This document shows, piece by piece, positions 6,879-41,797 of a stretch of DNA of 64,000 nt. The notes under the pieces are model-generated. The model searched no databases. It saw only the letters and a list, made by a program, of their open reading frames with translations, and was not told where the DNA came from. Source of the DNA: Lactobacillus hominis DSM 23910 = CRBIP 24.179 (GTDB lineage Bacteria; Bacillota; Bacilli; Lactobacillales; Lactobacillaceae); the NCBI RefSeq assembly GCF_000296835.1, contig NZ_CAKE01000005.1, positions 1 to 64,000 of the forward strand, written 5' to 3'. How positions within the stretch are numbered: the stretch's first letter is position 1; each line of letters opens with the position of its first letter. The position numbers and the translations under genes are program-made.

Positions 6879-7044
6879 CACTCGAGATTGTTAAACAAAA
6901 CACAAAAGCCGAAATTTACTGTAATTTTTTCTTTTTCTTCCTATAAGTCATATTATTATCCTTTAAATCTTGTCGTAACTATAATTGATTGTGAATAGGG
7001 TGTAAGTGCTTAACTACTTATATTTACAAGGAAGGAGTTTGGCA

Positions 7045-11516: not shown

Positions 11517-11550
11517 ACTTTTTATTGAAAAGATGGGGGAAAGCCTTGTA

Positions 11551-24189: not shown

Positions 24190-24201
24190 TAAAACTCTTA
24201 C

Positions 24202-24237
24202 AAAAAAAGACATGGTTTAAGACCATGTCTTTTTTTG
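24202..24237 (+). terminator. Terminator of the giant adhesin gene
   Basis: A 15-bp stem, AAAAAAAGACATGGT/ACCATGTCTTTTTTT, 12 bp after the stop codon. Confidence 0.95.
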
Positions 24238-24270
24238 TAAATAATATAAGTAGAAATCGATAGTGTAAGG

Positions 24271-24338: not shown

Positions 24339-26639
24339 GTGAATAACTTGAGAGAGACAGGGAATAATCAACCATTCACTGTAAACTTTATCGACCTTGA
24401 TAACGATAACGCTAGCCTGGCTCACTTAGAGGAATTAAAATTAGATGATTTAAATGTCGACAGAATCATCGAAACTTTACGTCAAAAAGGTTACCGGCTC
24501 GTTAATAATGATTTTGATGTTAATGCAAGCAATGAACACAATTTTGTCGTAACTTTTAAGCATACTTACCAAACAATCGATGCAGATAATCCAAATGACG
24601 ATTTTCCTGCAAGCGAATTAAGAAAGGTAGGTACTCAGACCGTTCATTATCAAGGAGCAGGTACAAGAACGCCTATTGATAATAAATCTACAGTGGTATT
24701 CAACCGTAGCTTAATTTTCGATCTTGTAGAAAAGAAGATTATCAAAGATAATGGCTGGACTAAGCCGTCATTTAGAATGATTGGAACGCCAGATGTACCA
24801 GGTTACGTGCCAAGCGATAGCTTTGTCGGAGGCGACGAAGTTAGCGTTGATAATCCAGACCGCAATTATGTTGTAACTTATGAAGTTAACAATAATCCAT
24901 CCCAAGATGAACAGACTGCAGTAGTAGAGTTTGTGGATGTTGATGCACAAAATAAAGAAATTTCAACTTCTGGTAGCCTAACTGGACAGCCTTATACGCG
25001 TATTGACTACTCGCCAACTGGAGTAATTAACTATCTAGAGCATCAAGGCTACAAGCTTTTGGATAATGGATTTAGTCCCAATGGCGAAGTACAATTCTTT
25101 GATAATAGCGATGAACATAAGCAGATTTATATCGTTTCAATGGGTCATATGCAGGCTAAGGTTGATAGCCACCACCCATTGACTGGTATTGAATCTTCGA
25201 GCTATGAACGTGATAAGATCTCAACTGTTCATTATGTTGGTGCCGGTGACAGTACGCCAGATGATAACACCCAAATTATCAAGTTAAGCCGCACGTTGAC
25301 TGTTGATTGCGTTTCTAAAGAAATTCTAGAAAAGACTAATTGGACCCCTTCCAAGAAAAAGTTTGATCAAGTTGTAACGCCAATTTTAGAAAACTACCAT
25401 GCAAATAAAGGCGTTGTTCCTGGTAGATTAGTTACATCTGATCATCTAGAAGAAACTGTAACTTATACGGCTAACGGATGCATTATTCCGGTTGATGAAA
25501 ACGGCAATGAATTAGCTAATGCACCGCATCCGCAATATCAAACTGATCCTAAAGATGCCACTCGCGTCTTAGAAAATGAACCAGTTCCTGAAATTAGCGG
25601 CTACATTGCCAAATTTGAAAGCGTCAGTCCAAAGGACCCAAGTCAAGATACTTATGTGGTTTATAACAAGAACTTGATCAACGAATTGCAAGAATTGCAA
25701 AACCGTGGTTTTGTTTTTGTTAACAACGGTTTAAATGCAGATACTGTGGCACGTTCAATTGATGGACATGATGATGGTACACAGACATATGCTATTGGCT
25801 TGCGCCATGGTCACCAGAATGTGACTCCTGATCATCCGGGAAACCCTGGCGAAGCAATTAATCCGCACTATCCAAATGGTCCCAAATGGCCAGTAGGTAC
25901 TGGACGCGATGATTTGGTTCGTATTGGTAAGCAGATTGTTACTTATCGCGGAGCAGGCGATGATACTCCTGTTAACAATGTTCAACAAGTTGAATTTGCG
26001 CGAACAATGATTATCGACCGCGTTACTGGTAAGATCTTAAAAGATAATGGCTGGAATGCGCTCAATCGTCAATTCGGTACTGTTGCTACGCCAGTAATTA
26101 ATGGCTTCCATGCAGATCGCAAGATTGTCGGTGGCAAGACTGTAACGCCTGATTACTTAACTGTTAAAGAAGTTGTAACTTATACAGCTAATGGTCAAAT
26201 TGTTCCAGTTAACCCTAATGGACAACCAATTCCTGGTGCAAAGCACCTACGCTATCAAACTGATCCACATGATCCAACTAAGGTAATGAGCAATGAACCG
26301 GTTCCTGAAGTTCCAGGTTATGTGCCAACGCAGACGACGGTTACGCCATCAAGTCCAAGTCAGGTAACGCCAATTGTTTATAAACCTGCTGGTAACGAAG
26401 TGATTGCTACTAACCAAAAAGAAGAAGCTAAAAAGCCAGCAGTTCCAGTAACTAAGGTTGAGCAAAAAGCTACTAGCAAGCCAGCAACTGAAAGTAAAGA
26501 AAAAACAAACAATGATAAAAAAGAAACTGAAAACAAAGCTTCACAAGTTTCTCATAAATCTGAATCAACAGTAAAAACTCCCGTAAAACCGGTAATTTTT
26601 ATTCCTAAAGTTGATCCAGATAAAGATAATGATAAATAA
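24339..26639 (+). CDS. Mub/MucBP-repeat protein without signal peptide or anchor
   Basis: A 766-aa protein starting at GTG with AGAAGGGG upstream. It opens directly with a MucBP-like module (FTVNFIDLDNDNASLAH) and alternates MucBP-like and Mub B2-like modules: MucBP, B2, MucBP, B2, a half MucBP (only the ELQELQNRGFVFVNNG part), then B2. A charged Lys/Glu tail (about 690-766) follows. There is no hydrophobic N-terminus, LPXTG motif or C-terminal helix, so by sequence it is cytoplasmic unless exported by an unconventional route or released by lysis. It contains two cysteines (TVDCVSK; NGCIIPV). It is clearly homologous to the modules of the upstream giant adhesin but more diverged at DNA level. 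It has its own promoter and terminator, so it is not simply a fragment of the neighbour. Confidence 0.8.
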   Translation: MNNLRETGNNQPFTVNFIDLDNDNASLAHLEELKLDDLNVDRIIETLRQKGYRLVNNDFDVNASNEHNFVVTFKHTYQTIDADNPNDDFPASELRKVGTQTVHYQGAGTRTPIDNKSTVVFNRSLIFDLVEKKIIKDNGWTKPSFRMIGTPDVPGYVPSDSFVGGDEVSVDNPDRNYVVTYEVNNNPSQDEQTAVVEFVDVDAQNKEISTSGSLTGQPYTRIDYSPTGVINYLEHQGYKLLDNGFSPNGEVQFFDNSDEHKQIYIVSMGHMQAKVDSHHPLTGIESSSYERDKISTVHYVGAGDSTPDDNTQIIKLSRTLTVDCVSKEILEKTNWTPSKKKFDQVVTPILENYHANKGVVPGRLVTSDHLEETVTYTANGCIIPVDENGNELANAPHPQYQTDPKDATRVLENEPVPEISGYIAKFESVSPKDPSQDTYVVYNKNLINELQELQNRGFVFVNNGLNADTVARSIDGHDDGTQTYAIGLRHGHQNVTPDHPGNPGEAINPHYPNGPKWPVGTGRDDLVRIGKQIVTYRGAGDDTPVNNVQQVEFARTMIIDRVTGKILKDNGWNALNRQFGTVATPVINGFHADRKIVGGKTVTPDYLTVKEVVTYTANGQIVPVNPNGQPIPGAKHLRYQTDPHDPTKVMSNEPVPEVPGYVPTQTTVTPSSPSQVTPIVYKPAGNEVIATNQKEEAKKPAVPVTKVEQKATSKPATESKEKTNNDKKETENKASQVSHKSESTVKTPVKPVIFIPKVDPDKDNDK

Positions 26640-26642
26640 AAT

Positions 26643-26675
26643 AAGCCATGGTCTCATCGGATCATGGCTTTTTGT
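26643..26675 (+). terminator. Terminator after the 766-aa gene
   Basis: AAGCCATG (26643-26650) / CATGGCTT (26663-26670), followed by TTTTTG. Confidence 0.8.
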
Positions 26676-26736
26676 CTACTTAAACTTATACTATAATAAC
26701 AATATGTATAGTTAATATAAGGATGGGTGAGTTGGA

Positions 26737-28968
26737 TTGGCCAATAAGTTGAAAAGAGATGAACAAGACAAACAAAGTCATTATGCTTTGCGTAAGATTA
26801 GCAAGGACTTGATTTCTGTATCAGCAGGCTTGGTTTTCGCAGGGATGGTTAGTGAAAAGCAAGTGAACCAGGTTAAGGCAGCAAGTTTACCTGATAACAG
26901 CCGAGTCAGTCAGATTAAGTCTAATCAAGAAATTGTTGAATTTGGTAAGATTATCCCAGTCAATCAAGATATGCAGCCGATTGCTAATGCACCAACTCCG
27001 CAATATCGTCGCGATCCTGAAGATCCTAATAAGGCGATAGCCACGCCAATTCCGGACATTAAAGATTATAAATTAGCTGATAAAGAGCAGGCTGAAAATG
27101 TCGATTTAGAAACCAAGATGGTTTTTCCGCCAGCTAATGTGCAAGAAGATACGAAAATTATTTATGTTGAAAGTATTAAACCGCAACAACCTAATCCAGC
27201 AAAGCCAGTTATTCCAAATAACTCAGCTAACCAGAATCACTTGCAACCATCCCGTCCAGCAGTAAATAATAAGCCGACTGTTTCAAATGCGAATTCTAGC
27301 GCTAATACTAATAAAAATTACCTGGGTAATATTACTCATGCGGCCGTTCAAAGTAATCCAAATAATCAATCTAATTCTGTTCAAAACACTACTTATCAAG
27401 TTAATTCTTCTGTAACTTATTCAAATAATATTAATAATTCTAATTTCTCTAATCAACAAAGTTCTGATCAAGGTTCTAGTTTAAATATGGCTAGTCAAAC
27501 AAGTGAAGCTAATCCATCTAATTCAGCTGGAAGCGAAGATACTAAGATAGATAAAAAGAAAACAAAAAATAAGACTAAAAAAAGCAAAGCAAGCGCTAAG
27601 CAAAAACTAAAAACTGAACATAAGAAGCATTCAACTCCTAAAACTAAGCCCAAGGCTAAAAAGCAACCTTCTAAGCAGTTTATGGTAATGCCACAGGTAA
27701 TCATGAATCCAGAAACAAAATTACCTCCTAAGCCGCAAAAAGCCACTCTAGTTTTAGCAGATGCTCAAGATAAAAAAGAGCTTTTGCGCTTAGAAGCTTA
27801 TGGTAGCCAAGGTGCGCCAATTGAATTTGAAGAATGGAATCGAACTTTGACTAGTCTGCAAGAAAAGGGTTATGAACTAGCTGGCATTTTGGATGTCAAC
27901 CAAGAAAAAAAGCGTGATTTACATGCGCAATTTATCTTTGGCTTTTATGGTGAAAAAGAAAGCAGCTTTGTTGCTAGTTTCGCTCATAAATTAGTTGCTG
28001 TAACGGCTAATAACTTGCCGTCGAATATTAGCGCAAGCTTGGTTAAACATGCGGTTTCGCTTGTGGTTCGCTATCAAGGAGCAGGAGACAATACGCCGGA
28101 AGAAAATGTTCAAAATGCAGTCTTTACGCGCAGTTTAACAATGGATAAAGTAACGCACCGCTTGATTAAAGATGGTAAGTTTACCACGCCGTGGCATAGT
28201 CAGCCTCTTTCTTATCAAGAAGTTGTTAGTCCGAAAGTTAATGGCTTTGTGGCAGATCCGACGCTAGTACCTAAAATGGCGGTAGCTAGCGAAGATGTTA
28301 TCAAGACTGTTGTTTATAAACCCGTTGCGCAAAAGACTAGTGAAATCAAAAAAACTAAGCAAACTTCAAATGCTGAAGAAATTACGGTTGTAAAGCCAGT
28401 TCCAAAGGTTAGCGAAGTTAAAAAGCAAAAACAACAGAATTTAAAACCAGTTACTTTTTATCCTAAGAAAAAGCAAAAAATTGAAACTAAGTTAATTTCT
28501 GATCCTAAAAAACAAGAACAAACACCTGAAAAAGAGAAGAAAATGACATTAAAGCAAGAACATAAAACCGTTTCGCCAAAGTCAGACTTAGTGGAATGCC
28601 ATTTCATTGATCAAAATGGTAAATCTATTCGACAAGAAACTAAGCTCAACGCCAGCGGAGTTTTACCAGCAATTGACGGCTATTATTTAGTTAAAACAGA
28701 ACTTAATACTGCTGGGATGACGGCAGCTTATGCGCCAATGGCTAAGATTGTGCCAGTAGATCAATATGGCAATTTGATTCCTGAGCCGCTTGACCCAACT
28801 AAGGCAGTTGCTCCAGTTGCTTTTAAAGCGGATCCCAACGATCCCACTAAAGCAGCCAAACGCCAAAAGGTTCCGCAAATTAGTGGTTGGAGTCCAGCAG
28901 TTGCTACTGTTAGTCCAGAAAATAATAAGATTGATATTCCTGTGGTTTATACGCGAATTAAGAAATAA
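26737..28968 (+). CDS. YSIRK-exported Mub-domain protein with polybasic segment and no sortase motif
   Basis: A 743-aa protein starting at TTG (26737), just after an in-frame stop, with GGATGGG as ribosome site and TATAAT at 26692-26697. The N-terminus carries a YSIRK-like signal (YALRKISKDLISVSAGLVFAG, processing near VKAAS). A Pro-linker module (GKIIPVNQDMQPIANAPTP), an Asn/Ser-rich stretch (about 165-270) and a strongly basic block (about 270-320, dominated by Lys) follow. Then come one degenerate MucBP-like module (VLADAQDKKEL onward), a B2-like module (LVVRYQGAGDNTPEEN), another basic linker and a partial B2/linker end. There is no LPXTG and no C-terminal helix, so it is probably secreted or held non-covalently. 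The basic block could bind anionic wall polymers; this is inference. The next gene starts 30 bp downstream. Confidence 0.8.
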   Translation: MANKLKRDEQDKQSHYALRKISKDLISVSAGLVFAGMVSEKQVNQVKAASLPDNSRVSQIKSNQEIVEFGKIIPVNQDMQPIANAPTPQYRRDPEDPNKAIATPIPDIKDYKLADKEQAENVDLETKMVFPPANVQEDTKIIYVESIKPQQPNPAKPVIPNNSANQNHLQPSRPAVNNKPTVSNANSSANTNKNYLGNITHAAVQSNPNNQSNSVQNTTYQVNSSVTYSNNINNSNFSNQQSSDQGSSLNMASQTSEANPSNSAGSEDTKIDKKKTKNKTKKSKASAKQKLKTEHKKHSTPKTKPKAKKQPSKQFMVMPQVIMNPETKLPPKPQKATLVLADAQDKKELLRLEAYGSQGAPIEFEEWNRTLTSLQEKGYELAGILDVNQEKKRDLHAQFIFGFYGEKESSFVASFAHKLVAVTANNLPSNISASLVKHAVSLVVRYQGAGDNTPEENVQNAVFTRSLTMDKVTHRLIKDGKFTTPWHSQPLSYQEVVSPKVNGFVADPTLVPKMAVASEDVIKTVVYKPVAQKTSEIKKTKQTSNAEEITVVKPVPKVSEVKKQKQQNLKPVTFYPKKKQKIETKLISDPKKQEQTPEKEKKMTLKQEHKTVSPKSDLVECHFIDQNGKSIRQETKLNASGVLPAIDGYYLVKTELNTAGMTAAYAPMAKIVPVDQYGNLIPEPLDPTKAVAPVAFKADPNDPTKAAKRQKVPQISGWSPAVATVSPENNKIDIPVVYTRIKK

Positions 28969-28998
28969 TTTTTAGAAAGAAAGTTTAGGTTTTAGCTG

Positions 28999-29919
28999 AT
29001 GAATAATGATGAAATGTTAAAGCATCAATTACAAACCGCCCACCTCAAGATTGTGGATCAAGATAATAGTTTTAAACAAATTGAGTCTGACGGACTGACA
29101 ACAGCTTTTACTGCACAAGGCTTACCCAAGACTGCGATTAATTTTCAAGAAGTTAATCAAGTCCTCCAACAACTCAAACAGCGTGGCTATCTTTATGTAA
29201 AAAGCGACCTGCCCGATGATGAAACGTTTGATAGTATCGACGATCAAGATCAAATAAGTCAGCGGTATCAAATCGTAATGCGCCATGCGACGCGTCCAGT
29301 CAATGCCGATAATCCGGCTGCTAATTATGGCTATGATAAAGAGAGCTTGTATCGCGATGTAACACGGACAGTGACATATTTTGCCGACAATGGCGTTGAA
29401 CTTGCACCAGTTGTCCAGCATGCTTATTTTGATGGAGCCAGCTACTTAGATGAGGTGACTCATAAGTTAGTAGCAACTAATTTAGATGGTTCAGTTGATA
29501 CTTCTAAAAAAGGCGGCTTGTCTTGGTCGCCTGATCAAGAATTTCCAGCAATTGCAGCTTTAGGCGGCTATCGCGTGGTTAAGTTGCAAACAGAAAATGA
29601 AGCAGATCGCGATGTGGCTGAAGATGGCGCAGTGGCAGCTATGAAAGTGGCGCATAATAGTCAAAACGTAAAGCTAGTTATTACGTTAGCAAGTGCTGCC
29701 GATAACGCAGATGAAGCAGCAATCGATGAGTCTGAAAATGATGCAAAAAATAACACTACAACTCAAGACAGTGACGACTCGTCACTACTTGCTGAGCAAA
29801 AAGATCCTGAAAAACCAGAAAATGACGAAAATTTAGAAGTCGATAGCGACGGGATACCAATTGGCGATCCATTAGATTTGATCGGTTTGTCAGGAATTAA
29901 AAAACACAATCGTGACTAA
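28999..29919 (+). CDS. Short Mub-domain protein without signal peptide
   Basis: A 306-aa protein with one divergent MucBP-like module (LKIVDQDNSFKQIES to YQIVMRHATRPVNAD) and one Mub B2-like module (VTRTVTYFADNGVELAPVV to KLVITLAS), then an acidic low-complexity tail rich in Asp, Glu and Asn. No signal peptide, membrane segment or anchor is visible. It lies 30 bp after the 743-aa gene without an intervening terminator, so the two are probably co-transcribed. The ribosome site (GAAAG or TAGG) is weak. The acidic tail contrasts with the polybasic partner encoded just upstream, and an electrostatic interaction between them is possible but untested. Confidence 0.75.
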   Translation: MNNDEMLKHQLQTAHLKIVDQDNSFKQIESDGLTTAFTAQGLPKTAINFQEVNQVLQQLKQRGYLYVKSDLPDDETFDSIDDQDQISQRYQIVMRHATRPVNADNPAANYGYDKESLYRDVTRTVTYFADNGVELAPVVQHAYFDGASYLDEVTHKLVATNLDGSVDTSKKGGLSWSPDQEFPAIAALGGYRVVKLQTENEADRDVAEDGAVAAMKVAHNSQNVKLVITLASAADNADEAAIDESENDAKNNTTTQDSDDSSLLAEQKDPEKPENDENLEVDSDGIPIGDPLDLIGLSGIKKHNRD

Positions 29920-29939
29920 TATTATATTAAGTATTAGCT

Positions 29940-29945
29940 TATAAT
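29940..29945 (+). promoter_or_regulatory. -10 element before the 491-aa Mub-domain gene
   Basis: TATAAT 45-50 bp before the ATG; no good -35. It may allow separate expression from the two preceding genes. Confidence 0.35.
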
Positions 29946-29989
29946 AGTTAGTGTAGAGATTAAATTTAAAAGTAAGAATAGGAAAAATT

Positions 29990-31465
29990 ATGGCTTGGTT
30001 TAAAAAGAACCGTCAAAAAGCGGTTATTAATTTTATAGATTTAGATAATGATTTAATGAGTATTGCGACTTCCGCAGAATTAACTGGTAAAAGTGGCGAA
30101 ATCGTAGATTACGACCCTAGTCAAGAAATTAAAGATTTACAGGGCAAAGGATACGTTTTAGTTCGTAACCAATTCAACGGTAATGGCCAAGTGCCAAAAT
30201 ACACTGATGATACTGAAGTTTACTTGATTAGCTTTAAGCATGGCGAAAGAAAGGTTAACCCAGATCATCCTTTAACTAAGATTGACAGTGAAGAATACGT
30301 TCATCCAATTCACTTTACTGTTAAGTTTGAAGGAACGCCAACTAAGGTGCGTGATCATGTACAAACTATCAATCGTTTCCGCACTTTAACTGCTGACCGC
30401 ATTACTAATAAACAAATTCCAAATGGTCAATTTGATACTGATTGGCAATTAGAAGCAGATAAGTTTGATGATTTTGAATTGCCAGTTTTACCTGGTGCTC
30501 ATACTAATAAAAAAGTTATCCCGGGACCAGCAGTTGGCGATAAAGATATTACTATCACTGCTCAATATGAGCCAAACGGACACTTAATCCCAGTTGATGA
30601 AAACGGCGATGAAATCATGAATGTGGGCCCATATCAATTTGCTAGCGACAAAGATGATCCAACTAAGGTTGCTGAGAACCAAATTGTTCCTGATATTGAT
30701 GGCTACACTCATGATCAAGAAGTTATCAGTCCTAAAGATCCTGGCAAAGACATGCCTGTAATTTATAAAAAAGTAGTCGAACCAGAACCTGAAGTAAACG
30801 AACCTGATACGTCAGCTGATTTAAACACAGTAAAGCTTGGTCAATTCCAAGATGTGAATAGTCCAAGTATGCCAGATACTAAGCAAGCCGCTCAAACAAT
30901 GGGAATGGACGAATATGTTGATGAAAAGGGCATTGAAAGACGTTCTGATGAACAAATGGCTATCATTAACTTTATCGATTTAGATAATAATGGTAAGCAA
31001 ATTACGTCATCTGGTCCTTTGTATGGCTTACCTGGTGAAGTAATCAACAACCTTTATAGTACAAAAGTACCAATGAAGGCTATTGAAAGAGCTGGCTTTG
31101 AAGTGGTCTTCAACAATTTCGATGGCGAAGGTCAAGAACAAAAATTCAATAATAACCACTTGCTTACTCAAATATTCACTGTTGGTTTGCGCCATAAAAA
31201 TAGTAAGTATAATCAAGATGTTTCAGATACCCAGCTTGATGCCGCAGAACTTGCTCATCGCCAAGCATTAGTGCGCGATAAGATTAATAACTTTGATCCA
31301 AATTCAGCAACTAATGAAAATGAAACTGCGGCTATTATCACTGTAGCCAATGCGACAATGCAATTGTTGAGTATGTTTATTGATAAGAACCAACAAGAAG
31401 CTCAAGCAAAAGCAACAAATGTTGCAGATGAAACAACTAATACAGATCAAGAAGAAAATAACTAA
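29990..31465 (+). CDS. Mub-domain protein without signal peptide, with helical tail
   Basis: A 491-aa protein. After a short basic start (MAWFKKNRQK) come a MucBP-like module (AVINFIDLDNDLMSIATS to YLISFKHG), a B2-like module with the usual GHLIPVDENGDEI linker, an acidic connector (about 265-325), a second MucBP-like module (AIINFIDLDNNGKQITSSG to FTVGLRHK), and a predicted helical tail (about 410-470: AELAHRQALVRDKINNF, ATMQLLSMFIDKNQQEAQ). There is no signal peptide, transmembrane helix or LPXTG. The repeated INFIDLDN motif links it closely to the 766-aa protein at 24.3 kb. The helical tail could mediate oligomerisation. Function unknown; mucin binding is only implied by domain homology, and export is not evident. 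Confidence 0.75.
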   Translation: MAWFKKNRQKAVINFIDLDNDLMSIATSAELTGKSGEIVDYDPSQEIKDLQGKGYVLVRNQFNGNGQVPKYTDDTEVYLISFKHGERKVNPDHPLTKIDSEEYVHPIHFTVKFEGTPTKVRDHVQTINRFRTLTADRITNKQIPNGQFDTDWQLEADKFDDFELPVLPGAHTNKKVIPGPAVGDKDITITAQYEPNGHLIPVDENGDEIMNVGPYQFASDKDDPTKVAENQIVPDIDGYTHDQEVISPKDPGKDMPVIYKKVVEPEPEVNEPDTSADLNTVKLGQFQDVNSPSMPDTKQAAQTMGMDEYVDEKGIERRSDEQMAIINFIDLDNNGKQITSSGPLYGLPGEVINNLYSTKVPMKAIERAGFEVVFNNFDGEGQEQKFNNNHLLTQIFTVGLRHKNSKYNQDVSDTQLDAAELAHRQALVRDKINNFDPNSATNENETAAIITVANATMQLLSMFIDKNQQEAQAKATNVADETTNTDQEENN

Positions 31466-31544: not shown

Positions 31545-31659
31545 GGTTAAGGTATAGAAAAGCATTATTCCTAGCTAATAATTTCCCCCATATATTTTAT
31601 AAATCCACGCTAGTTAGGTGATGCAGCCACTCGGAGTTTATCTCTGGGTGGCTTTTTTT
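31545..31659 (+). ncRNA. Candidate small RNA with C-rich loop and intrinsic terminator
   Basis: About 115 nt between a promoter (31509-31538) and a strong terminator (GCCACtCGGAG/CTCtGgGTGGC, 31626-31652, then seven T). An internal stem CCTAGCTA/TAGTTAGG exposes a loop of about 33 nt containing TTTCCCCCAT (31582-31591). That decamer is exactly complementary to the ribosome-site region of the amino-acid permease gene (11533-11542). C-rich unpaired loops that block Shine-Dalgarno sequences are known in Firmicutes trans-acting sRNAs. It is not a family I recognise. It could instead be the leftover leader of the truncated adhesin gene that follows. Confidence 0.45.
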
Positions 31660-31691
31660 GTGCTCTTTTAAAAAATTATTTAATAACAAAA

Positions 31692-34028
31692 ATCACATTT
31701 GATCCCAACGACTCAACTAAGATTACGCCAAATGAGCCAGTTCCGGAAGTTCCAGGATATAAGCCAGTTGTACCGACAATAACTCCAGTAAATCCAGGCG
31801 AGCCAACTAAAGTAATTTACACGCCAGATGCAAAGGACCAAACTGTAAAAGTTAATACTGACAATACTGAAATTCCAGGCTTTGCACCGCATGTAATTAC
31901 TGCAAAACCAGGCAGTCAGCTTGATTACAATCCAGATTCGACAATTAAAGAAATTGAAGCAAAGGGCTACAAACTTGACCACAATGACTACGACATTACA
32001 ACGATGCCTAAAAATGGTGGCACTTACCGCATCACATTTGTTCACAACATTATCCATGTAACTCCAGATAACCCAGGTGCTGGTTATAGTGCAAAAGATT
32101 TGGAACACGAAGTGACAAGAACAATTAATTACGTTGGTCCAGATGGCAGTATTCATGAACCTGTTGTTCAAAGTGCTAAGTTTACTGCTTCGGGTTACTA
32201 TGACGAAGTAACTAAGCATTGGGTAAGTGTTTCTGATAGTAAGGTTACTGGACAAGTTGATGGTCCAACTTGGACGCCCGAAAATGAAGAGCTAGCTAAG
32301 GTTGTTTCTCCATCAATTAAAGGGATGCATGTTGTTTCTGTAAGTAGCGATGCCGACGGCAGCGATGTTGCAAGTGCTCAAGTTACTCACCAAAGTCCAA
32401 ATGTTGTCATTACTGTAACTTATGCACCTAATGGCGCAATTGATGAAGGCGGAAAGACCGTGACGGGCAAACAGATTGTTAACTTTGTAGGCCCAGATGG
32501 CAAGCCACTCGTTGCTCCAAATACGCAAACTACTACCTTTACTAAATCTCCTGATGTAGTTGATCCAATTACTCATGAAGTAATTAAAAAAGGTAGCTGG
32601 AAGGAAACTAGTCATACCTTCAAAAACGTTGATTCACCAGTGATTAAAGGATATGTCACACGTGAAACAATCACTAAGGGTGCAACAGTCACTCCAGATG
32701 ATCCTGATAAGGTAATTACGGTTCATTATGAAAAAGTCGGTAAAATCATCCCGGTAACTCCAGACGGTAAGCCGATTCCAAATGTACCAAATCCACCTTA
32801 TGAAAATGATCCAAATAATCCAGCAAAGGTTACTCCAAATGAACCAGTTCCAAATATTCCTGGTTATACTCCAAGCGTGCCAACAGTCACTCCAACTGCT
32901 CCGACTAAGGACACAACTGTAACTTACACTAAGAATGATGAAGATCAAAAAGCCGTTGTTCAATACATCGATCAAGACGAAAATAATAAGATAATTGCAA
33001 CTTCTGGTACTTTAACAGGAAAAGTTGGTACAACAATTGACTATTCAACAACTGAAGAAATTAAGAAGTTAGAGTCTCAAGGCTATGAATTAGTTTCTAA
33101 TGGCTTTAAGGAAGGAGTAAAATTTGAAACTAATGATGGTAAAGAGCAAGTCTTCAAGGTAGTAATGAAGCATGGTTATGCCAAGATCACGCCAGATCAG
33201 CCAAATATCCCAAAGCCAAGCACGCCAATTAACCCAGACGATCCAAATGGTCCAAAGTGGCCAGACGGCGTTTCTAAAGATGACTTGAATAAAGAAATCA
33301 CGAGAACGATCAATTACGTCAATGGATCAGGAACTAAGATTGCTCCATCTGTAGTTCAAAGCGTACACTTTGGCAGAACTGCAATCGTTGATAAAGTAAC
33401 TGGTAAGTTACTCGGCTATAGCACTGATGGCAAAGACCAAGTAACTACAACTGATGGCGACAAGGCATGGCAAGTAATTGGTTCAAATAAATATAAGAGC
33501 GTAGATTCACCAAGCGTTTCTGGCTATACTGATCCTAGCCCAAGTGTGGTTAGTGAAAAGACAGTAGTAGCTAGCGATAAAGATAGCATTGTAAATGTTC
33601 AATACACGCCAGTTTCTACGCCAATTCCTGAGCCGCAACCAGAGCCAACACCGACCCCAACGCCTGAACCGGAACCAACGCCAATTCCACAACCTCATCC
33701 ACAACCAGAGCCGACTCCAGATGAACCAACCCCTCAGCCTGAGCCACAGCCAGAACCAGATGTTCCAGCTCCTCATGGCGAAGATGAGCCAGATAATCCA
33801 AATAATGAAGGCGATAATGTAGTAACTCAAGCTCAACCGCAGACTCCAATTTTGGCTTCGAATAATGGTGAAATCAGTGATAATACTGTTAAGCCACATG
33901 CTCAAGACGAGCAATTGCCACAAACTGGTCAAGCAGATAATGATACTGTCTTGACTGCTGGTTTAGGCCTTAGCTTAGTTGGTTTATTAGGTTTGATCGA
34001 TCCAAAACAAAGAAAAAAGAATAATTAG
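31692..34028 (+). pseudogene. 5'-truncated LPQTG-anchored Mub adhesin
   Basis: Adhesin-like coding sequence begins abruptly near 31695 (TFDPNDSTKITPNEPVPEVP), mid-linker, and runs to an intact C-terminus. The first ATG in frame, at 32004 (674 aa), has no ribosome site and falls inside a MucBP module, so it is not a true start. Modules in order: linker, MucBP (VKVNTDNTEIPGFAPHV), B2 (VTRTINYVGPDGSIHEPVV), B2 (GKQIVNFVGPDGKPLVAP), MucBP (AVVQYIDQDENNKIIATSG), B2 (ITRTINYVNGSGTKIAPSV), a Pro/Glu/Gln wall spanner, LPQTG (33915-33929), helix and QRKKNN. The signal peptide and upstream modules are missing, and the upstream frame stays open only briefly across unrelated AT-rich DNA. Most likely a deletion remnant; it could serve as a donor for recombination with intact paralogues. 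Confidence 0.75.
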
Positions 34029-34354: not shown

Positions 34355-37300
34355 ATGTTATCAAAAAATAATTATCAAGAAAAACTTCGTAAAATGCAGC
34401 CACGGAAGAATCGGTACTCGATTCGTAAATTTACAGTCGGGGCTGCTTCTGTTTTGATTGGTTTCTTTTTGGCTGGCTTTAGTCAAAACCAAACAGTTAA
34501 AGCTGATACCAATAGTCATACCGATAACGAAATGACGCCACATAAAGCACAAGCAGTTAATTCTAAGGACTTAACCACAGGTGTTGAAGGCAAAAATGTT
34601 AACGTTCAAGAAGTAAATAATGAGAAATTAGCACAAGCTGCCAATGATAATAAAGTAGCTAAAACCGAAAAAGAACATATTTTAGATACTTTACCTACTC
34701 AAGAGTCTAAATCTACAGTTAATAGATCAAAGGAAAATAAAGATGTACTAACAAAGCAAGTTGGAGCAAATTTAGTTGCTAACAAGAAAGATAATCCTGC
34801 TAAAGTTGCTTTAGCTAAATTAGCAGCGGAATCTAAAGAAGCCCAACAACAAAATTTGCGTGGTACTCAAACTGCAGAAGCCAGCGATTGGCAAAGCCTA
34901 GTTAATGCTTTAAATAATGCTAATAACGGTACTATTAACTTAACTGGCGATATTACTGTTGCTAACAAAGGCGCTAATGTTAATGGTATTAATCGTCCAA
35001 ATCCTGTTGTTAATAGCGGTAAGATGAATTTAACTGGCGAAAACATTTCCGGTGGCTTAGTGATTAATGGTCAAGGTCATGCTATTAACTTTGGTGCTAA
35101 TTATCTTAGCTTTACTACTAATAATCAAAAAGATAGTAATCCTTGGGATATTACCTTTAAGAATATGACCATTAATGCCGATGGCTACGATAATTCATGG
35201 TCTACTCTTGGCGGTGCATTTAGCCCAATTTACATGGGTGGAGATGACATAAGAACTGATCTTTTAGCTAACAACAAGGTTACATTTGAAAACGTAACTG
35301 CTGATATTAAAAACGGTGCCTTCTATAACACTACTATGGCTCAACAAACCACTGATAATCCATACACTACGGTAACGTTTAAAGGTAATAACAATATTAC
35401 TTGTGAAGCCGTAAATGTTAAAGGTAACCAACTTTACAATTATTCAAGTGCTGTTTCAGCTTCACATATTATTTTTGTAGATGGTTCTGACACTACCTTT
35501 AATGTAAGTTCAGCTAAGACTAACAACGACCAAAATGCTGGTGGCAACATCTTACGTGCCAAAGTTGAAGATGAAGCAAATGATACTGCTCCAGCAATTG
35601 ACGTCCAACAAGGTGCAACCGTAACCTTGAATGGTAATTCTACAGATGTTAAAGGTATGTTGGTAAATAGAGCCATTACTGGTACAGTTCAAGTGGATGG
35701 TAACTTAAATGCCAAAATGGCTGATGGTCACTCAATGGCTATTTGGGCTGGCAACTTAAACATTGGTAAAAATGGTGTTGTTAATATTAATACTAAGCAA
35801 AGTAACGATGGTAGTGGTATAAATGGCGTAGGTAATTACAATGGTTATCACTTTGCTCCCATTTCATTAGGTGTTGGTTTTGCTGCTAATGTTTCTAATG
35901 CAAATTCAAATGTTTTAGATAACCAAGGTAAGTTAACTATTGTCCGTACTGGTGTTAATAACCAATCTACTTCACCATTAATTTCATTTGGTTCAGGTAA
36001 TGGTACTGGTGCTGAATTTAGCTTAAATGTAGCAGATGGCGCTACGATGGACTTGCAAGATGGTGCAACATCTTCAATCAAAGGTGACTTCACTAATACG
36101 CCTAACATCGGTATCGTAACCATGTGGGGTAACGGTAGTACTAGTGGTTCAGCTGCTTCAACTTATGCCAATATTAACATTAATAATCCAGCTTATGTAA
36201 ACTTCCAACGTACAGGTTCTCAAACTGGTACTTTGCTTCGCCTTGAAAACATGAACAACCACGTTAACATTTCAAGTAACGGCGGAGCTTTACCGTTAGC
36301 TTTATGGGATGAAGCTAATAAGAGCGCAGGTCCTTCATATTACTGGTACATTAACCAATTAAAGAACCAAAACAACTGGGGTGACAATTCTATTTCAGGA
36401 TTTGCTCAAACTGGTAATTCAATCGGTCAAAACAAGAAGGGTGAAATTAAGTTCTTACACTCTAACGGTGATATTACTTTTGCTGGTAGCCAAGCTGGAT
36501 TGAATACTTTCCAATATCAAGATGGTGTTGTAACTCAAGGTCAACCTGCTAAAGGCGTTAAGTATGAAACTCCATACTTGAACAGATTCTTGAATGTCTT
36601 TAACTGGTGGACTCCACAACGTGTTGCTATGGGTACAAACCTTGCATCTGTTGCTAAGCCAACAGATGCACAAAAGTATCAACCACAAACTCAAGTTATC
36701 ACTGGTTATACTGACCAAACCTTAAATGATTTAACTGCCGCAAATGGTATTAGTGGTTATATTAATGAAAATGGTCAACCAGCTACCTTAACTGGCACTA
36801 CTGTTGCTTGGTATAATCCTGCCACTGATGCAGCTGCTTGGACTGAGGCTATGGGCGATCAACCTACTCCAACTAACCCAACTGGAAAGTTAAAAGTTAC
36901 GGATGGTTCTGCATGGGCTAAGGTAACTTATCAAGATGGTACTGTTGATTTTGCTAATATTCCATTAGATATTAAGAGCCAAGCTGAAGAATATAATCCA
37001 CTTGGTCAAAACGTAAATACTATTGTTGGAAGCGAACCATCAGCCAAAGACGGTATTTCTAATACCAGTGATTTGCCAACAAGTGCTCAATACAGTTGGT
37101 CAACTACTCCAGATGTTTCTAAGGCTGGCATTGTTCCATCAATTGTTAATGTAACTTATGATGATGGCTCAATGGACGAAGTTCCAGTAAACGTTATTGT
37201 TAAAGACAGCAAAGGCAATATTCCTGACAAAGCTGGCGATGCTGCTGAAAATGACCCTCAAGGTAAAGAGGTTTCTACAGTTATTGGTAAGCTTCCAGAT

Positions 37301-40300
37301 CCAAATACTGCTGTTGATTGGCCAAAGAATCCAGTAGATGCAGATGGCAAGCCTATTGACCCAACACAAATTAAATATGACTGGTCAACTACACCAGATA
37401 TCTGGACTCAAGGCAATCACCCGGGTGTTGTTAAGGTAACTTACCCAGATGGTACTAATGACTTAGTTCCAACTACAGTTATCGTAACTAATTCTCCAAC
37501 TGGTAAATCAACTACCATCGAACAAGGTGGAGATGTTCCAGATCCATCTACAGTTATTGATTGGACTAACAATGGTCAAGCTCCCAATGGTACTAAGCCA
37601 AATGATCCAAAGGTAACTTATACTTGGGTAGACAAGCCAACAACTACTAACCCAGGTCAGCAAACTGGTACAGTTAAGATTACTTATCCTAACGGTGAAT
37701 CAACTGTTGTCAGAGTTCCAGTTACTGTAACTGCAACTAATAGTTCATATGATCCATTTGCTAAGCACTTAGTTTTACCATATAGCCCAACAGGTGATGG
37801 GGTTCCAGAAGCTGGCTCAGTAATTGAATTGCCAAATGGTGAAACTGCTCCAGCAGGCGTTCAATATACTTGGGGAACTAAACCTGATACCACTAAGCCT
37901 GGTATGCAAACAGCTAATATTATTGCAACTTGGACTACTGATGGTAAGACTAATACTAAGAATATTCCTGTTACAGTTACTGTTGGTTCAATGGCTGGTT
38001 ACTATAATCCAAAGGCAAATGACTTAACTGTTCCTTACAATGCAGATATGAATAAATATCCTGCTAAGAACCAAATTACTGGTCTTCCATCGGGCTTAAA
38101 GACTGATGATGTTTGGGCACCAATGCCTGTAACTTCAGTTGCAGGAACCCAACCAACTATGATCAAAGTAACTTACAGTGATGGTTCATTTGACTACGTT
38201 CCACTTAATGTAACTGTGGAAAATACCGCATATACACCAAGTTACAATCCTGTAAGTGTCAAGCCGGGCCAACAAGTAACTGATAATATTGTTATTCCAG
38301 ATGGTCAAAAGACACCATCAGGCACTAAGTTTACAGCTGGTGAAACTACACCAAATTGGGCAACAGTTGATCCAACTACTGGTACGATTACCCTGAAGCC
38401 AAGTGCTGACGTAACTCCAGGACATTATTTTGTTCCTGTAATAATTGCTGTTCCTGGTAAAGGCAATCAGACTATCACTGCCCCAGTTACTGTAATCGGT
38501 ATGGATCCAGAACATAATACTTACTATGGCAGCCAAAGCATGACTAGTTTTGACATACCAACTATCTCAGTTCACAGAACTACCGATAGCAACCCAATTA
38601 ACGCAGATTTAGCCAAGATTCAAACTATTACTTACTACCAAGATTGGGACGGTAAGGGTAATGCAACTTCTAATTACAAGACATTTACTACATATCAATT
38701 GGAAGGAAATAAGTATGTAAATATTAAAGATCCTTCAGATAGCTTTGCTGCAAATGTCTTCAACTATAGTTGGATGCCAGCAGGTAATGGTGTCTTAACT
38801 CCAAATACCAATTGGAAAGTAACTGCAGATAACACTGATACAATTAAGTACGATATGGGTCAAGCACCTAACTCACTAGAGCAAACTACTGATGGTGAAA
38901 GCTTGCCTGGTAATTCTAAGTGGCGTGTAGAATATAGCTTTAACGATCCTGATTTGTTTGGCTACATAGGACTGAGCAGTCAAAGTTCATGGATGAACAC
39001 TTACTTTGACTTCTATGGTGCTACTACTGGTCAAGCTTTAACCTTCAACCAAAACCAAGACATTTCTAACTTAACTCAAGATCAATACCGTCAATTAATT
39101 GATGTAACTGATCTTGGTCAAGCTGGTTGGAATGGTCAAAATATTAATCCTAATGCACCACAAGTTCTTGCCTACGTTCCAGGTACTGATGCAGCTAAGA
39201 CTTTCTCAATGACTTGGGCACCAAATGGTCAACCTTCAACTAAGGATATTGCTAATGGCGTAAGTGGTACTGTTCGCATTCACTTCAACGATGGTACTTA
39301 TCTTGACGTTAAGGCAAACATCAACGTTGTAGCTGATTCAGATTCTGGTAAGGGTGATCACAATAAGACTGAATTTACTCAAAAGATTGTTTACACTTAT
39401 AATGGTCATGAAGTTGCTTACACAACTATCGATAATATTGCTAAAGGTTCAAGCTTAACCGCTGCTCAATTGAAGAGTGCAATTGATGGCAATGTTCCTG
39501 CAAATTACAATATTGCTACTGGTTACACTTATCCAGGTGCAGTTAACGACATTACAGCTACCCCAGCAGTAATCAATGTTCCGTTAGCTCTTAAAAATGG
39601 TTCACAATTTAACGCCCAAGGTCAAATCGTTTACCAAACTGCTGATGGTACACAAGTAGGTACTGGTGCAACGATCAAGAGTAATATTGGTGATACTTTG
39701 ACTGCTGGATTATTACATGATTTAGCTGATCAAAGTGTTCCAGAAGGTTACACTATTTCTCAATACCCAGGCTCATTTGAAGTAAGTACAAAGAGCTTTA
39801 CTATTCCAGTTATTGTTACAAAGGCAACTCCTGATACACAAAACTTTGCACAAAATATTGTTTACAAGGATGCAGAGGGTAAAGTAATTAGCACATTTAA
39901 CAAGGCAATTACTGGTACCTTTACTTCTAAGACTCCTGCAACTGTTTCAGCTGATGAAATAAAGAACACTATTAATAATGGCGTTCCAAAGAACTGGAAG
40001 ATTGCAACTAGCTACAAGTATCCAGCAGCTGAAACTATTAGCACTAAGACTCCAGCTGACATCATTGTTCTTGTTGAACACGCAACTAAGTACATCACTC
40101 CAACTGATCCAGGCGTAGATCCAACTGATCCTAAGTACAAGAATATGTTCGAGACAGTAACTCGTAAGATTTACCAAACTAAGCCAGGTGAAAATCAAAC
40201 ATTATTTGATACTCAATCCGTAGACTTTGGTAGAAAAGGTGTTGAAGACTTAGTAACTCGCGATGTAACTGGTACAGGCGATTGGCAAGTTGGTAAAATC

Positions 40301-41797
40301 AGTGATCACAAGTTTACTTTAGGCGGCAGTGCTGAATTTGCTGAAGAAAATGCTCCACAAATTGATGGTTATGATTCATACGTAGATGGCACTAAGTCTA
40401 CTCAAGTTTCAAGTGCTCCTGCACTTAAAGATGGTCAACCTGTAAATGGTCAACCTGCTTACATCACTTACCTTAAGGCCGGTAAGACTACTCCGGTTCC
40501 TTATGATCCATCTAATAGGGAAATGAATAAGTACGTAACTCGTACAATTAATGTTTACAAGCCAGGTTTATCTAAGGCAGAAACTATTACTCAAACTGTT
40601 CACTTTGTTCGTGGCGGTGTAGGTCAAAATGCTGGTATGAAAGATACCGAAGGTAACATTGCTTGGACTGCTTGGACTGTTGCTGACGGTGACAATGTTT
40701 CAACTGGTGCAGAAACTGGTACTTGGAAAGAATACGATGTTGATCAAATTAACAACTATACTTCAACTGTTGATGGCAAGGATGCAACTAAGGTTGATGC
40801 GAAGGCTGTTAATGCAGATACTTCTAATGTAACTGTAACTGTTGCTTATACCCAAACCTTGCAACCAACTGACCCAACGATCAATCCAAACAAACCAGGC
40901 GAAAATAGTGATATGTATGCTCATCCAACTCGGACAATCAACGTTAAGAATCCTGTAACAGGTAACACTGATACTTCTACTCAAGTTGTATGGTTCGGTC
41001 GCACCAAGACTGTTTCAACTGATCCAAATGTCAAACCAACTTATGGCAAGTGGCAATTAGGTAAAGTTGAAAATAATAAGTTTGTCATTGATTCAACTGC
41101 TAAAGCTGAATGGCCTGAATTCGCAGCTCCAACTTTTGATGGTTATACTCCAAGCCAAGATAAAGTTACTGCTGTAAATGATATTAAGCCAGATACTGCC
41201 AATGTAATAGTAACAATCACTTACAGCAAAAATAATAATGGTGGCGGGAACGTAACCCCTACACCTCAAGGTCAAGTAACAATCATTTATCGCGATTCTA
41301 ATGGCACTGAGGTGGGTAGAACGACTATCTCGGGTGCTGAAGGTTCAACTGTTGATCCATCATCAACAATTGAAGGTAATATTCCATCTGGTTATAAGTT
41401 AAAAGATGGCTACCAAGTACCAACGAATGCCTCCATCAGTTCAACAATTGAAGTACCAGTTGTAGTTGCTGACAATGGTGGAAATAACGGCAACGATGAT
41501 AACGGCAATAAAGGTCCGACTGTTCCAACGGATTCTAATAATCACAACAATGGACATGACAATGAATTTAATAATGGTAATAAGGCTAACAGTGCGGCAG
41601 ATAATGGCGGTATTACTGAAAATGATAATACATACTCAGCTCATACTACTGGCAATAATATCCAACATGGTATTAGTGCTAAGAAACTTCCACAAACTGG
41701 AAATAAGACTAATAAGTGGGGTATCTTTGGTTTAGCCGTTGCAAGTTTAGCTGGATTATTTGGATTAGGATCTGATAAAAAACGTCGTAGCAGATAA
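34355..41797 (+). CDS. Large YSIRK/LPQTG surface protein with beta-helix head, Rib-like and Mub-type repeats
   Basis: A 2480-aa sortase-anchored protein. Signal peptide YSIRKFTVGAASVLIGFFLAG with cleavage near VKAD (~52); low-complexity Lys/Asn/Ala-rich region to ~175; right-handed beta-helix-like head (~175-730: WQSLVNALNNANNGTINLTG onward); a run of Rib-like repeats (~780-1290), each with a W-S-T-T-P-D or similar core and a VTYPDG-type strand; a long-Rib-like domain (~1300-1390); an unassigned beta region (~1395-1665); three related ~85-aa repeats (QKIVYTYNGHEVAYT, QIVYQTADGTQVG, QNIVYKDAEGKVIS); three B2-like modules; a MucBP-like module (VTIIYRDSNGTEVGRT); an Asn/Gly/Asp-rich spanner; LPQTG at 2445-2449, helix, KKRRSR. 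One cysteine is visible (NITCEAV). Head plus stalk architecture indicates a fibrillar adhesin; the ligand is unknown. Its C-terminal part is paralogous to the next gene. Confidence 0.92.
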   Translation: MLSKNNYQEKLRKMQPRKNRYSIRKFTVGAASVLIGFFLAGFSQNQTVKADTNSHTDNEMTPHKAQAVNSKDLTTGVEGKNVNVQEVNNEKLAQAANDNKVAKTEKEHILDTLPTQESKSTVNRSKENKDVLTKQVGANLVANKKDNPAKVALAKLAAESKEAQQQNLRGTQTAEASDWQSLVNALNNANNGTINLTGDITVANKGANVNGINRPNPVVNSGKMNLTGENISGGLVINGQGHAINFGANYLSFTTNNQKDSNPWDITFKNMTINADGYDNSWSTLGGAFSPIYMGGDDIRTDLLANNKVTFENVTADIKNGAFYNTTMAQQTTDNPYTTVTFKGNNNITCEAVNVKGNQLYNYSSAVSASHIIFVDGSDTTFNVSSAKTNNDQNAGGNILRAKVEDEANDTAPAIDVQQGATVTLNGNSTDVKGMLVNRAITGTVQVDGNLNAKMADGHSMAIWAGNLNIGKNGVVNINTKQSNDGSGINGVGNYNGYHFAPISLGVGFAANVSNANSNVLDNQGKLTIVRTGVNNQSTSPLISFGSGNGTGAEFSLNVADGATMDLQDGATSSIKGDFTNTPNIGIVTMWGNGSTSGSAASTYANININNPAYVNFQRTGSQTGTLLRLENMNNHVNISSNGGALPLALWDEANKSAGPSYYWYINQLKNQNNWGDNSISGFAQTGNSIGQNKKGEIKFLHSNGDITFAGSQAGLNTFQYQDGVVTQGQPAKGVKYETPYLNRFLNVFNWWTPQRVAMGTNLASVAKPTDAQKYQPQTQVITGYTDQTLNDLTAANGISGYINENGQPATLTGTTVAWYNPATDAAAWTEAMGDQPTPTNPTGKLKVTDGSAWAKVTYQDGTVDFANIPLDIKSQAEEYNPLGQNVNTIVGSEPSAKDGISNTSDLPTSAQYSWSTTPDVSKAGIVPSIVNVTYDDGSMDEVPVNVIVKDSKGNIPDKAGDAAENDPQGKEVSTVIGKLPDPNTAVDWPKNPVDADGKPIDPTQIKYDWSTTPDIWTQGNHPGVVKVTYPDGTNDLVPTTVIVTNSPTGKSTTIEQGGDVPDPSTVIDWTNNGQAPNGTKPNDPKVTYTWVDKPTTTNPGQQTGTVKITYPNGESTVVRVPVTVTATNSSYDPFAKHLVLPYSPTGDGVPEAGSVIELPNGETAPAGVQYTWGTKPDTTKPGMQTANIIATWTTDGKTNTKNIPVTVTVGSMAGYYNPKANDLTVPYNADMNKYPAKNQITGLPSGLKTDDVWAPMPVTSVAGTQPTMIKVTYSDGSFDYVPLNVTVENTAYTPSYNPVSVKPGQQVTDNIVIPDGQKTPSGTKFTAGETTPNWATVDPTTGTITLKPSADVTPGHYFVPVIIAVPGKGNQTITAPVTVIGMDPEHNTYYGSQSMTSFDIPTISVHRTTDSNPINADLAKIQTITYYQDWDGKGNATSNYKTFTTYQLEGNKYVNIKDPSDSFAANVFNYSWMPAGNGVLTPNTNWKVTADNTDTIKYDMGQAPNSLEQTTDGESLPGNSKWRVEYSFNDPDLFGYIGLSSQSSWMNTYFDFYGATTGQALTFNQNQDISNLTQDQYRQLIDVTDLGQAGWNGQNINPNAPQVLAYVPGTDAAKTFSMTWAPNGQPSTKDIANGVSGTVRIHFNDGTYLDVKANINVVADSDSGKGDHNKTEFTQKIVYTYNGHEVAYTTIDNIAKGSSLTAAQLKSAIDGNVPANYNIATGYTYPGAVNDITATPAVINVPLALKNGSQFNAQGQIVYQTADGTQVGTGATIKSNIGDTLTAGLLHDLADQSVPEGYTISQYPGSFEVSTKSFTIPVIVTKATPDTQNFAQNIVYKDAEGKVISTFNKAITGTFTSKTPATVSADEIKNTINNGVPKNWKIATSYKYPAAETISTKTPADIIVLVEHATKYITPTDPGVDPTDPKYKNMFETVTRKIYQTKPGENQTLFDTQSVDFGRKGVEDLVTRDVTGTGDWQVGKISDHKFTLGGSAEFAEENAPQIDGYDSYVDGTKSTQVSSAPALKDGQPVNGQPAYITYLKAGKTTPVPYDPSNREMNKYVTRTINVYKPGLSKAETITQTVHFVRGGVGQNAGMKDTEGNIAWTAWTVADGDNVSTGAETGTWKEYDVDQINNYTSTVDGKDATKVDAKAVNADTSNVTVTVAYTQTLQPTDPTINPNKPGENSDMYAHPTRTINVKNPVTGNTDTSTQVVWFGRTKTVSTDPNVKPTYGKWQLGKVENNKFVIDSTAKAEWPEFAAPTFDGYTPSQDKVTAVNDIKPDTANVIVTITYSKNNNGGGNVTPTPQGQVTIIYRDSNGTEVGRTTISGAEGSTVDPSSTIEGNIPSGYKLKDGYQVPTNASISSTIEVPVVVADNGGNNGNDDNGNKGPTVPTDSNNHNNGHDNEFNNGNKANSAADNGGITENDNTYSAHTTGNNIQHGISAKKLPQTGNKTNKWGIFGLAVASLAGLFGLGSDKKRRSR

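Follow-up and report, generated by a model that had tools for sequence, protein, structure and literature searches.

We examined the first 64,000 nucleotides of contig NZ_CAKE01000005.1 of Lactobacillus hominis DSM 23910 (hereafter the window; genome handle G000, 1.93 Mb in 36 contigs), in which four adjacent open reading frames (ORFs), here called genes 1 to 4, occupy positions 24339-31465. As the original prediction from this DNA had claimed, all four frames are unbroken and encode Mub modules, with Pfam recognizing MucBP_2 and/or Muc_B2 domains in every one of them. Their exported relative, a giant adhesin, is located directly upstream of gene 1. Gene 1 contains three MucBP_2-type and three Muc_B2 modules, followed by a low-complexity tail that is not conserved. 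Gene 2 is predicted to contain a YSIRK-like signal near its N-terminus, an Asn/Lys-rich stretch and one Muc_B2 domain, which is its only domain above the Pfam cut-off. In gene 3, MucBP_2 scores above the cut-off and Muc_B2 narrowly below it (22.8 vs 23.5 bits), and the tail of the protein resembles the end of a sorting signal minus LPXTG. Gene 4 carries a MucBP_2-Muc_B2 unit at its extreme N-terminus and a signature domain toward its C-terminus.

Export, anchoring and expression signals of the four genes

Signal calls were based on hydropathy and profile models rather than on a dedicated signal-peptide predictor. The best 15-residue hydropathy mean within the first 70 residues is 0.12, 0.54 and 0.90 for genes 1, 3 and 4, respectively, while gene 2 reaches 1.99 and the giant 1.51 by the same measure; by hydropathy, none of genes 1, 3 and 4 has a strongly hydrophobic N-terminus. 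The in-frame open run 5' of these three genes covers only 7, 1 and 11 codons. In the 180 bases 5' of them, none of the frames contains a YSIRK motif. LPXTG is absent from all four genes. The earlier claim that three of the proteins lack a signal peptide and that none has a sortase motif therefore held. Genes 1, 3 and 4 have neither signal nor anchor, as is the case for anchorless adhesins. All four genes have the Mub modules of sortase-anchored adhesins but lack their LPXTG motif; the signal peptide of such adhesins is missing from genes 1, 3 and 4, and that of gene 2 is YSIRK-like but low-scoring (NCBIfam 12.3 bits vs a cut-off of 20.2). Gene 2 has the look of a cluster member that is exported but not anchored, whereas genes 1, 3 and 4 are distinct signal-less types. 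Treating the four genes as one group, as was done originally, is too simple.

Purine-rich sites that could serve ribosome binding are visible by eye 5' of genes 1, 2 and 4, but the site of gene 3 is weak. The idea that some of the genes have their own promoters was not borne out, as the scan returned 15 promoter-like sites on both strands, fewer than the 21.4 ± 5.1 found in shuffles. Genes 1 and 4 are followed by terminator-like hairpins, as is the giant; the overall count is 10 vs 7.6 ± 2.5 in shuffles. The hairpin between the giant and gene 1 was called on the minus strand, and its stem is similar when read on either strand. The open frame 3' of gene 4, which opens at the hairpin located there, is likely a real adhesin fragment, contrasting with genes 1 to 4.

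Table 1. Features of the cluster and its immediate surroundings (window coordinates; aa, amino acids)
Feature	Position	Strand	Basis
Giant adhesin, 3618 aa	13333..24189	+	YSIRK signal, MucBP_2/Muc_B2 modules, LPQTG anchor
Terminator-like hairpin with T-runs, between giant and gene 1	24197..24241	.	Hairpin scan
Gene 1, signal-less anchorless Mub protein, 766 aa, GTG start	24339..26639	+	ORF, Pfam, hydropathy
Terminator-like hairpin 3' of gene 1	26643..26670	+	Hairpin scan
Gene 2, probably exported anchorless protein, 743 aa, TTG start	26737..28968	+	ORF, Pfam, NCBIfam, hydropathy
Gene 3, signal-less Mub protein, 306 aa	28999..29919	+	ORF, Pfam, hydropathy, tail alignment
Gene 4, signal-less Mub protein, 491 aa	29990..31465	+	ORF, Pfam, hydropathy, structure prediction
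Signature C-terminal MucBP-like domain of gene 4	30953..31216	+	24 invariant positions in 13 gene-4-type proteins
Terminator-like hairpin 3' of gene 4	31625..31653	+	Hairpin scan
Remnant, 5'-truncated LPQTG Mub adhesin frame without signal	31614..34028	+	ORF, Pfam

Conservation, spread and module lineages

In L. agrestimuris DSM 110155 (locus L009), the four genes are present in identical order, with corresponding starts and matching presence or absence of the signal. Identity over aligned residues is 84, 42, 54 and 68% for genes 1 to 4, and the value for gene 1 compares with 70% for the WalK-type kinase of the window. The ratio of nonsynonymous to synonymous substitution rates (dN/dS, NG86 method) between the two species is 0.07, 0.41, 0.15 and 0.17, at saturated dS; gene 2 is the least conserved of the four by both measures. 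The original prediction had named dN/dS as a check, and in six pairs of signal-less genes from close relatives with unsaturated dS (0.20-0.40; NG86; four G014/G033 pairs, one G059/G070 and one G022/G023) it is 0.11-0.22, not near 1. Among the matches listed for 75 genomes of the genus, we found no signal-bearing fused version of the signal-less N-termini. The best 27 matches of an N-terminal profile (A1) fall at frame starts in 26 cases and are interrupted by a stop in one (G073), a result to be taken as a consistency check and not an independent census, since the profile contains many of the sequences that it matches. With no fused version listed and dN/dS well below 1, the argument that retained frames speak against decay is upheld, and genes 1, 3 and 4 look like old selected genes rather than broken copies.

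At least 18 of the 75 genomes have complete Mub ORFs with neither signal nor anchor: 33 ORFs in 17 genomes and, counting an identical copy in G058, 34 in 18. The count excludes broken ORFs at loci L075, L078, L080, L087 and L094, as well as two in L095, and eight Mub ORFs fitting neither the signal-less nor the exported class were omitted. In G014, G033, G020 and G059, a giant with YSIRK and LPXTG is flanked by a signal-less gene of type A upstream and one of type B downstream; the type B copy of G070 is broken. A single chimeric gene with an in-frame type A start and type B end stands in the apparent place of this arrangement in G022 (L098, 3105-5759) and G023 (L097, 3203-5866), where recombination appears to have removed the giant. 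For 22 of the 34 complete ORFs, an ORF bearing a YSIRK or LPXTG motif is found no more than 3 kb away, a count made without a genome-wide baseline; two of the 22 adjoin only the truncated remnant of the window, leaving 20 of 34 when it is excluded. Another two lie more than 3 kb from an exported or anchored ORF. Outside the genus, the ORFs of some stretches were examined and one signal-less member was seen, a 545-aa protein encoded 59 bases after a giant in G264; several other genomes outside the genus have large frames bearing these modules among the matches listed.

Using FastTree (no branch supports), we placed 204 MucBP-type modules, 124 exported and 80 signal-less, in one tree, on which the class label changes five times, compared with 52-73 times in 500 shuffles and 40-77 times (mean 63) in shuffles of whole proteins. 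Broken loci were omitted from the tree, except that L095 was represented by all its modules, and so were ORFs of neither class, duplicates and modules that were weak or short. By this topology, signal-less and exported modules are separate lineages. As for the signature C-terminal domain, its 18 best matches in the genus (at least 125 bits) are gene-4-type genes or their broken copies only, while matches of at most 94 bits are found in type B, in the last module of some giants and, partially, in a broken G005 copy.

Cysteine content, C-terminal ends and predicted fold

Signal-less and exported proteins differ in cysteine content. In this set of related, non-independent sequences, the frequency is 1.77 per 1000 residues in signal-less proteins vs 0.089 in exported Mub-type ORFs, a difference of about 20-fold. 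Within the modules themselves, we counted 35 cysteines in 16,715 signal-less residues vs none in 43,149 exported residues. At least one cysteine is present in 24 of 33 complete signal-less proteins vs two of 35 exported ORFs with MucBP-type modules (beyond residue 60). All 45 exported ORFs, which take in ORFs cut at locus ends and the gene 2 pair with its signal but no anchor, hold eight cysteines in 89,836 residues, located in five ORFs. When the nine genomes with both classes are taken one by one, cysteine is higher in the signal-less proteins in eight and lower in none, with one tie. The giant of the window has no cysteine; two other exported LPXTG proteins of the window, at 42127-44394 and 7006-11400, have four and five, which is unusual beside it. 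Secreted proteins of Firmicutes are noted to be poor in cysteine in a passage of PMC10432803 citing Daniels 2010, and together with the contrast seen here this pattern favors a cytosolic location of the signal-less family. Compared with the giants, most signal-less members also have more Lys/Arg and less Thr/Asn/Ser, although the two groups overlap.

The C-termini of types A and B consist of a charged linker followed by a short conserved, helix-like motif, in which 11 of the last 12 columns are invariant in type B and six of 12 in type A, compared with 28 and 17 of the 68 columns of the preceding linker. FtsA and MinD are cytosolic proteins that are targeted to the membrane by an amphipathic helix at one end. 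Types A and B resemble them in this charged linker and short conserved C-terminus, possibly an amphipathic helix, whereas such a terminus is not seen in gene 1; we know of no homology between the signal-less Mub proteins and FtsA or MinD. A different ending was detected when the last 28 residues were compared with the part of the sorting signal that follows LPXTG. Eight of the 33 complete proteins beat all 300 shuffles (all four of the gene 3 type, including that of the window, and L076, L082, L088 and L089), and in the same comparison no such tail is found in types A and B, gene 1 or gene 4 of the window. Both the type A/B ends and the sorting-signal-like tails might bind the membrane.

The first unit of gene 4 (262 residues, 14 rows) is predicted to adopt a complete Mub-like fold, with a mean predicted local distance difference test score (pLDDT) of 87.5 and with 4mt5 and 3i57 as the nearest structures. 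The protein starts eight residues ahead of the first strand of this unit, the fold beginning at residue 9. The model of the whole gene 4 protein, built from two sequences, is poor (mean pLDDT 40.5), and a helical region near its C-terminus is of low confidence.

A putative intracellular branch of the Mub family

We favor the reading that genes 1, 3 and 4 are members of a signal-less branch of Mub proteins, old and under selection, that are most likely cytosolic, adhesin-linked binding proteins, and give it a probability of about 0.55. Without a Sec signal, these proteins would stay in the cytosol, and a terminal helix may attach some of them to the inner side of the membrane. Their genes sit at, and often directly adjoin, loci of large sortase-anchored adhesins. 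The intracellular Mub modules could recognize the Mub chains encoded by neighboring genes, or a ligand common to such modules, and this binding might tune the production or delivery of the adhesin; the adhesin-linked role is a guess. In its most specific form, which we offer tentatively, an old intracellular branch, partly tethered to the membrane and in some members equipped with the signature C-terminal domain, has been retained throughout Lactobacillus at adhesin loci and would, by binding Mub chains or their ligand from inside the cell, control when or where the adhesin is displayed. Three roles had been proposed for the cluster, and the one favored here, mainly on account of cysteine, is that of intracellular proteins with a new role for these modules; soluble competitors and unconventionally exported partners are kept as possible roles.

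Several observations weigh against the cytosolic, adhesin-linked reading. Between the window and L. agrestimuris, dS is saturated. Broken copies exist: the signal-less copies seen in G005, G036 and G073 are all broken, and G026 has one complete and two broken. Three of the 33 ORFs counted as complete (L074 at 3913, L081 and L086) begin within a Muc_B2 module and are possibly truncated; one of them, in G014, is closely preceded by a stop in the corresponding frame. The stretches examined around 10 of the 34 members showed no exported ORF. G071 keeps a complete type A gene and has no other MucBP_2-type match at 1e-10 among the matches listed, and 22 genomes of the genus without a recognized member bear Muc_B2 frames, the largest of those listed reaching 12,445 aa; because of these genomes, member and giant are not an obligate pair. 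The eight sorting-signal-like tails, that of gene 3 included, may only reflect anchored ancestors, the tail of gene 1 is not conserved, and gene 4 bears no likeness to a sorting signal over its final 28 residues. Cysteine is missing from genes 3 and 4 of the window and from nine of the 33 complete proteins overall, so that it is evidence for the family and not for each gene.

Two frames noted in the comparison, G035:C1 ~243511-276035 (12,445 aa) and G021:C12 ~117849-138539 (8,075 aa), have many Muc_B2 matches and would encode extremely large proteins if real. A link of the signal-less genes to the largest adhesins was dropped, as these two frames lie in genomes without recognized members.

It is conceivable, although on balance rather unlikely, that the signal-less proteins are anchorless adhesins, exported non-classically or released by lysis, that stick to the cell surface or to mucus via their Mub modules or tails. 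A parallel is offered by FbpA of L. casei, which we take to come from a different protein family. Like genes 1, 3 and 4, FbpA, an anchorless adhesin, has neither signal nor anchor, as described in passages of PMC7677277; exit from the cell without a signal peptide has been discussed for it. Passages of PMC3501525 report a 65-kDa L. jensenii 'adhesion exoprotein', possibly a signal-less member, in vaginal lavage. The modules are predicted to have the known Mub fold, some tails are sorting-signal-like and gene 2 of the cluster looks exported, all of which would suit such adhesins. The roughly 20-fold cysteine contrast, with cysteine absent from the exported modules, the lack of any known signal in genes 1, 3 and 4 and the shifted composition of most members do not, and the cysteine content, indirectly, points away from a place on the surface.

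We consider it improbable that the proteins serve as chaperones dedicated to export, which would prevent giant Mub chains from folding or bring them to the Sec site and be obligate for very large adhesins. The gene neighborhood and the possible membrane tails agree with such a role, but the 22 genomes mentioned above have Muc_B2 frames, some of them very large, without a recognized member, and the member of G071 is without a MucBP_2 giant among the matches listed. Silent cassettes that feed variation into the giant by gene conversion are very improbable: the same modules do adjoin the giant and relatives do show recombination, but the repeats of genes 1 to 4 are at most 79% identical to the giant's reference copies, compared with up to 96% within the giant (families listed), the trees keep signal-less and exported modules apart, and dN/dS indicates selection on the protein itself. 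That recombination left the genes behind as pieces of giant adhesins in decay is likewise very improbable: although Mub loci recombine (as in the G022/G023 chimera, with the giant gone), several copies elsewhere carry stops and 31614-34028 looks like a true remnant within the window, this reading is already contradicted by the conserved starts and gene order, purifying selection, separate module clades, complete predicted N-terminal fold and absence of a hidden signal upstream.

The Mub/MucBP adhesins of lactobacilli (L. reuteri MUB, 3i57, 4mt5) have the MucBP_2/Muc_B2 modules and the predicted fold in common with the family described here; they differ in that genes 1, 3 and 4 are without a recognizable signal or LPXTG, and that the signal-less family often has cysteine and forms separate module clades. 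Some of its members have very probably been tabled before. The table passages of PMC3257693 give LGAS_0044, LGAS_0046, LGAS_0939 and LGAS_0944 of L. gasseri and LJ_0046 and LJ_0048 of L. johnsonii as MucBP proteins, and their lengths, by which alone they were matched, equal those of signal-less genes in G014 (873, 985, 615 and 524 aa) and G059 (870 and 983 aa), respectively. The A-giant-B arrangement of G014 corresponds by length to LGAS_0044-0046, whereas the giant between LJ_0046 and LJ_0048 is tabled with 2139 aa vs 2964 in G059. These table passages make no mention of a missing export signal. A passage on LAB-Secretome (PMC3017865) calls a few ORFans without a signal peptide but with extracellular-type domains pseudogenes, and we found no description of the signal-less Mub proteins as a conserved intracellular family in the passages of open-licence PMC literature consulted. 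An intracellular role would be unexpected for a family known as outside adhesins. Mub-domain genes are tabled as candidate mucus adhesins (e.g. in the passages of PMC3257693 cited above). Should there be a conserved subset that is never exported, it is wrongly placed in such lists, and these adhesion modules would have an inside function still to be found. With the family placed by gene length in L. gasseri-like and L. johnsonii-like genomes, and these species in common laboratory use, the location of its members and the effects of their knock-out are directly testable.

Beyond the remnant, the window encodes two further surface proteins, at 34355-41797 and 42127-44394, each with a YSIRK signal, LPXTG and Muc_B2, the former additionally bearing Rib domains and a pectate-lyase-like adhesive domain. 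An amino-acid permease gene is located 5' of the giant in the window (11533-13032) and 3' of the cluster in L. agrestimuris (L009, 11015-12448); the two copies are 69% identical, and their positions reflect either a local rearrangement or different paralogues.

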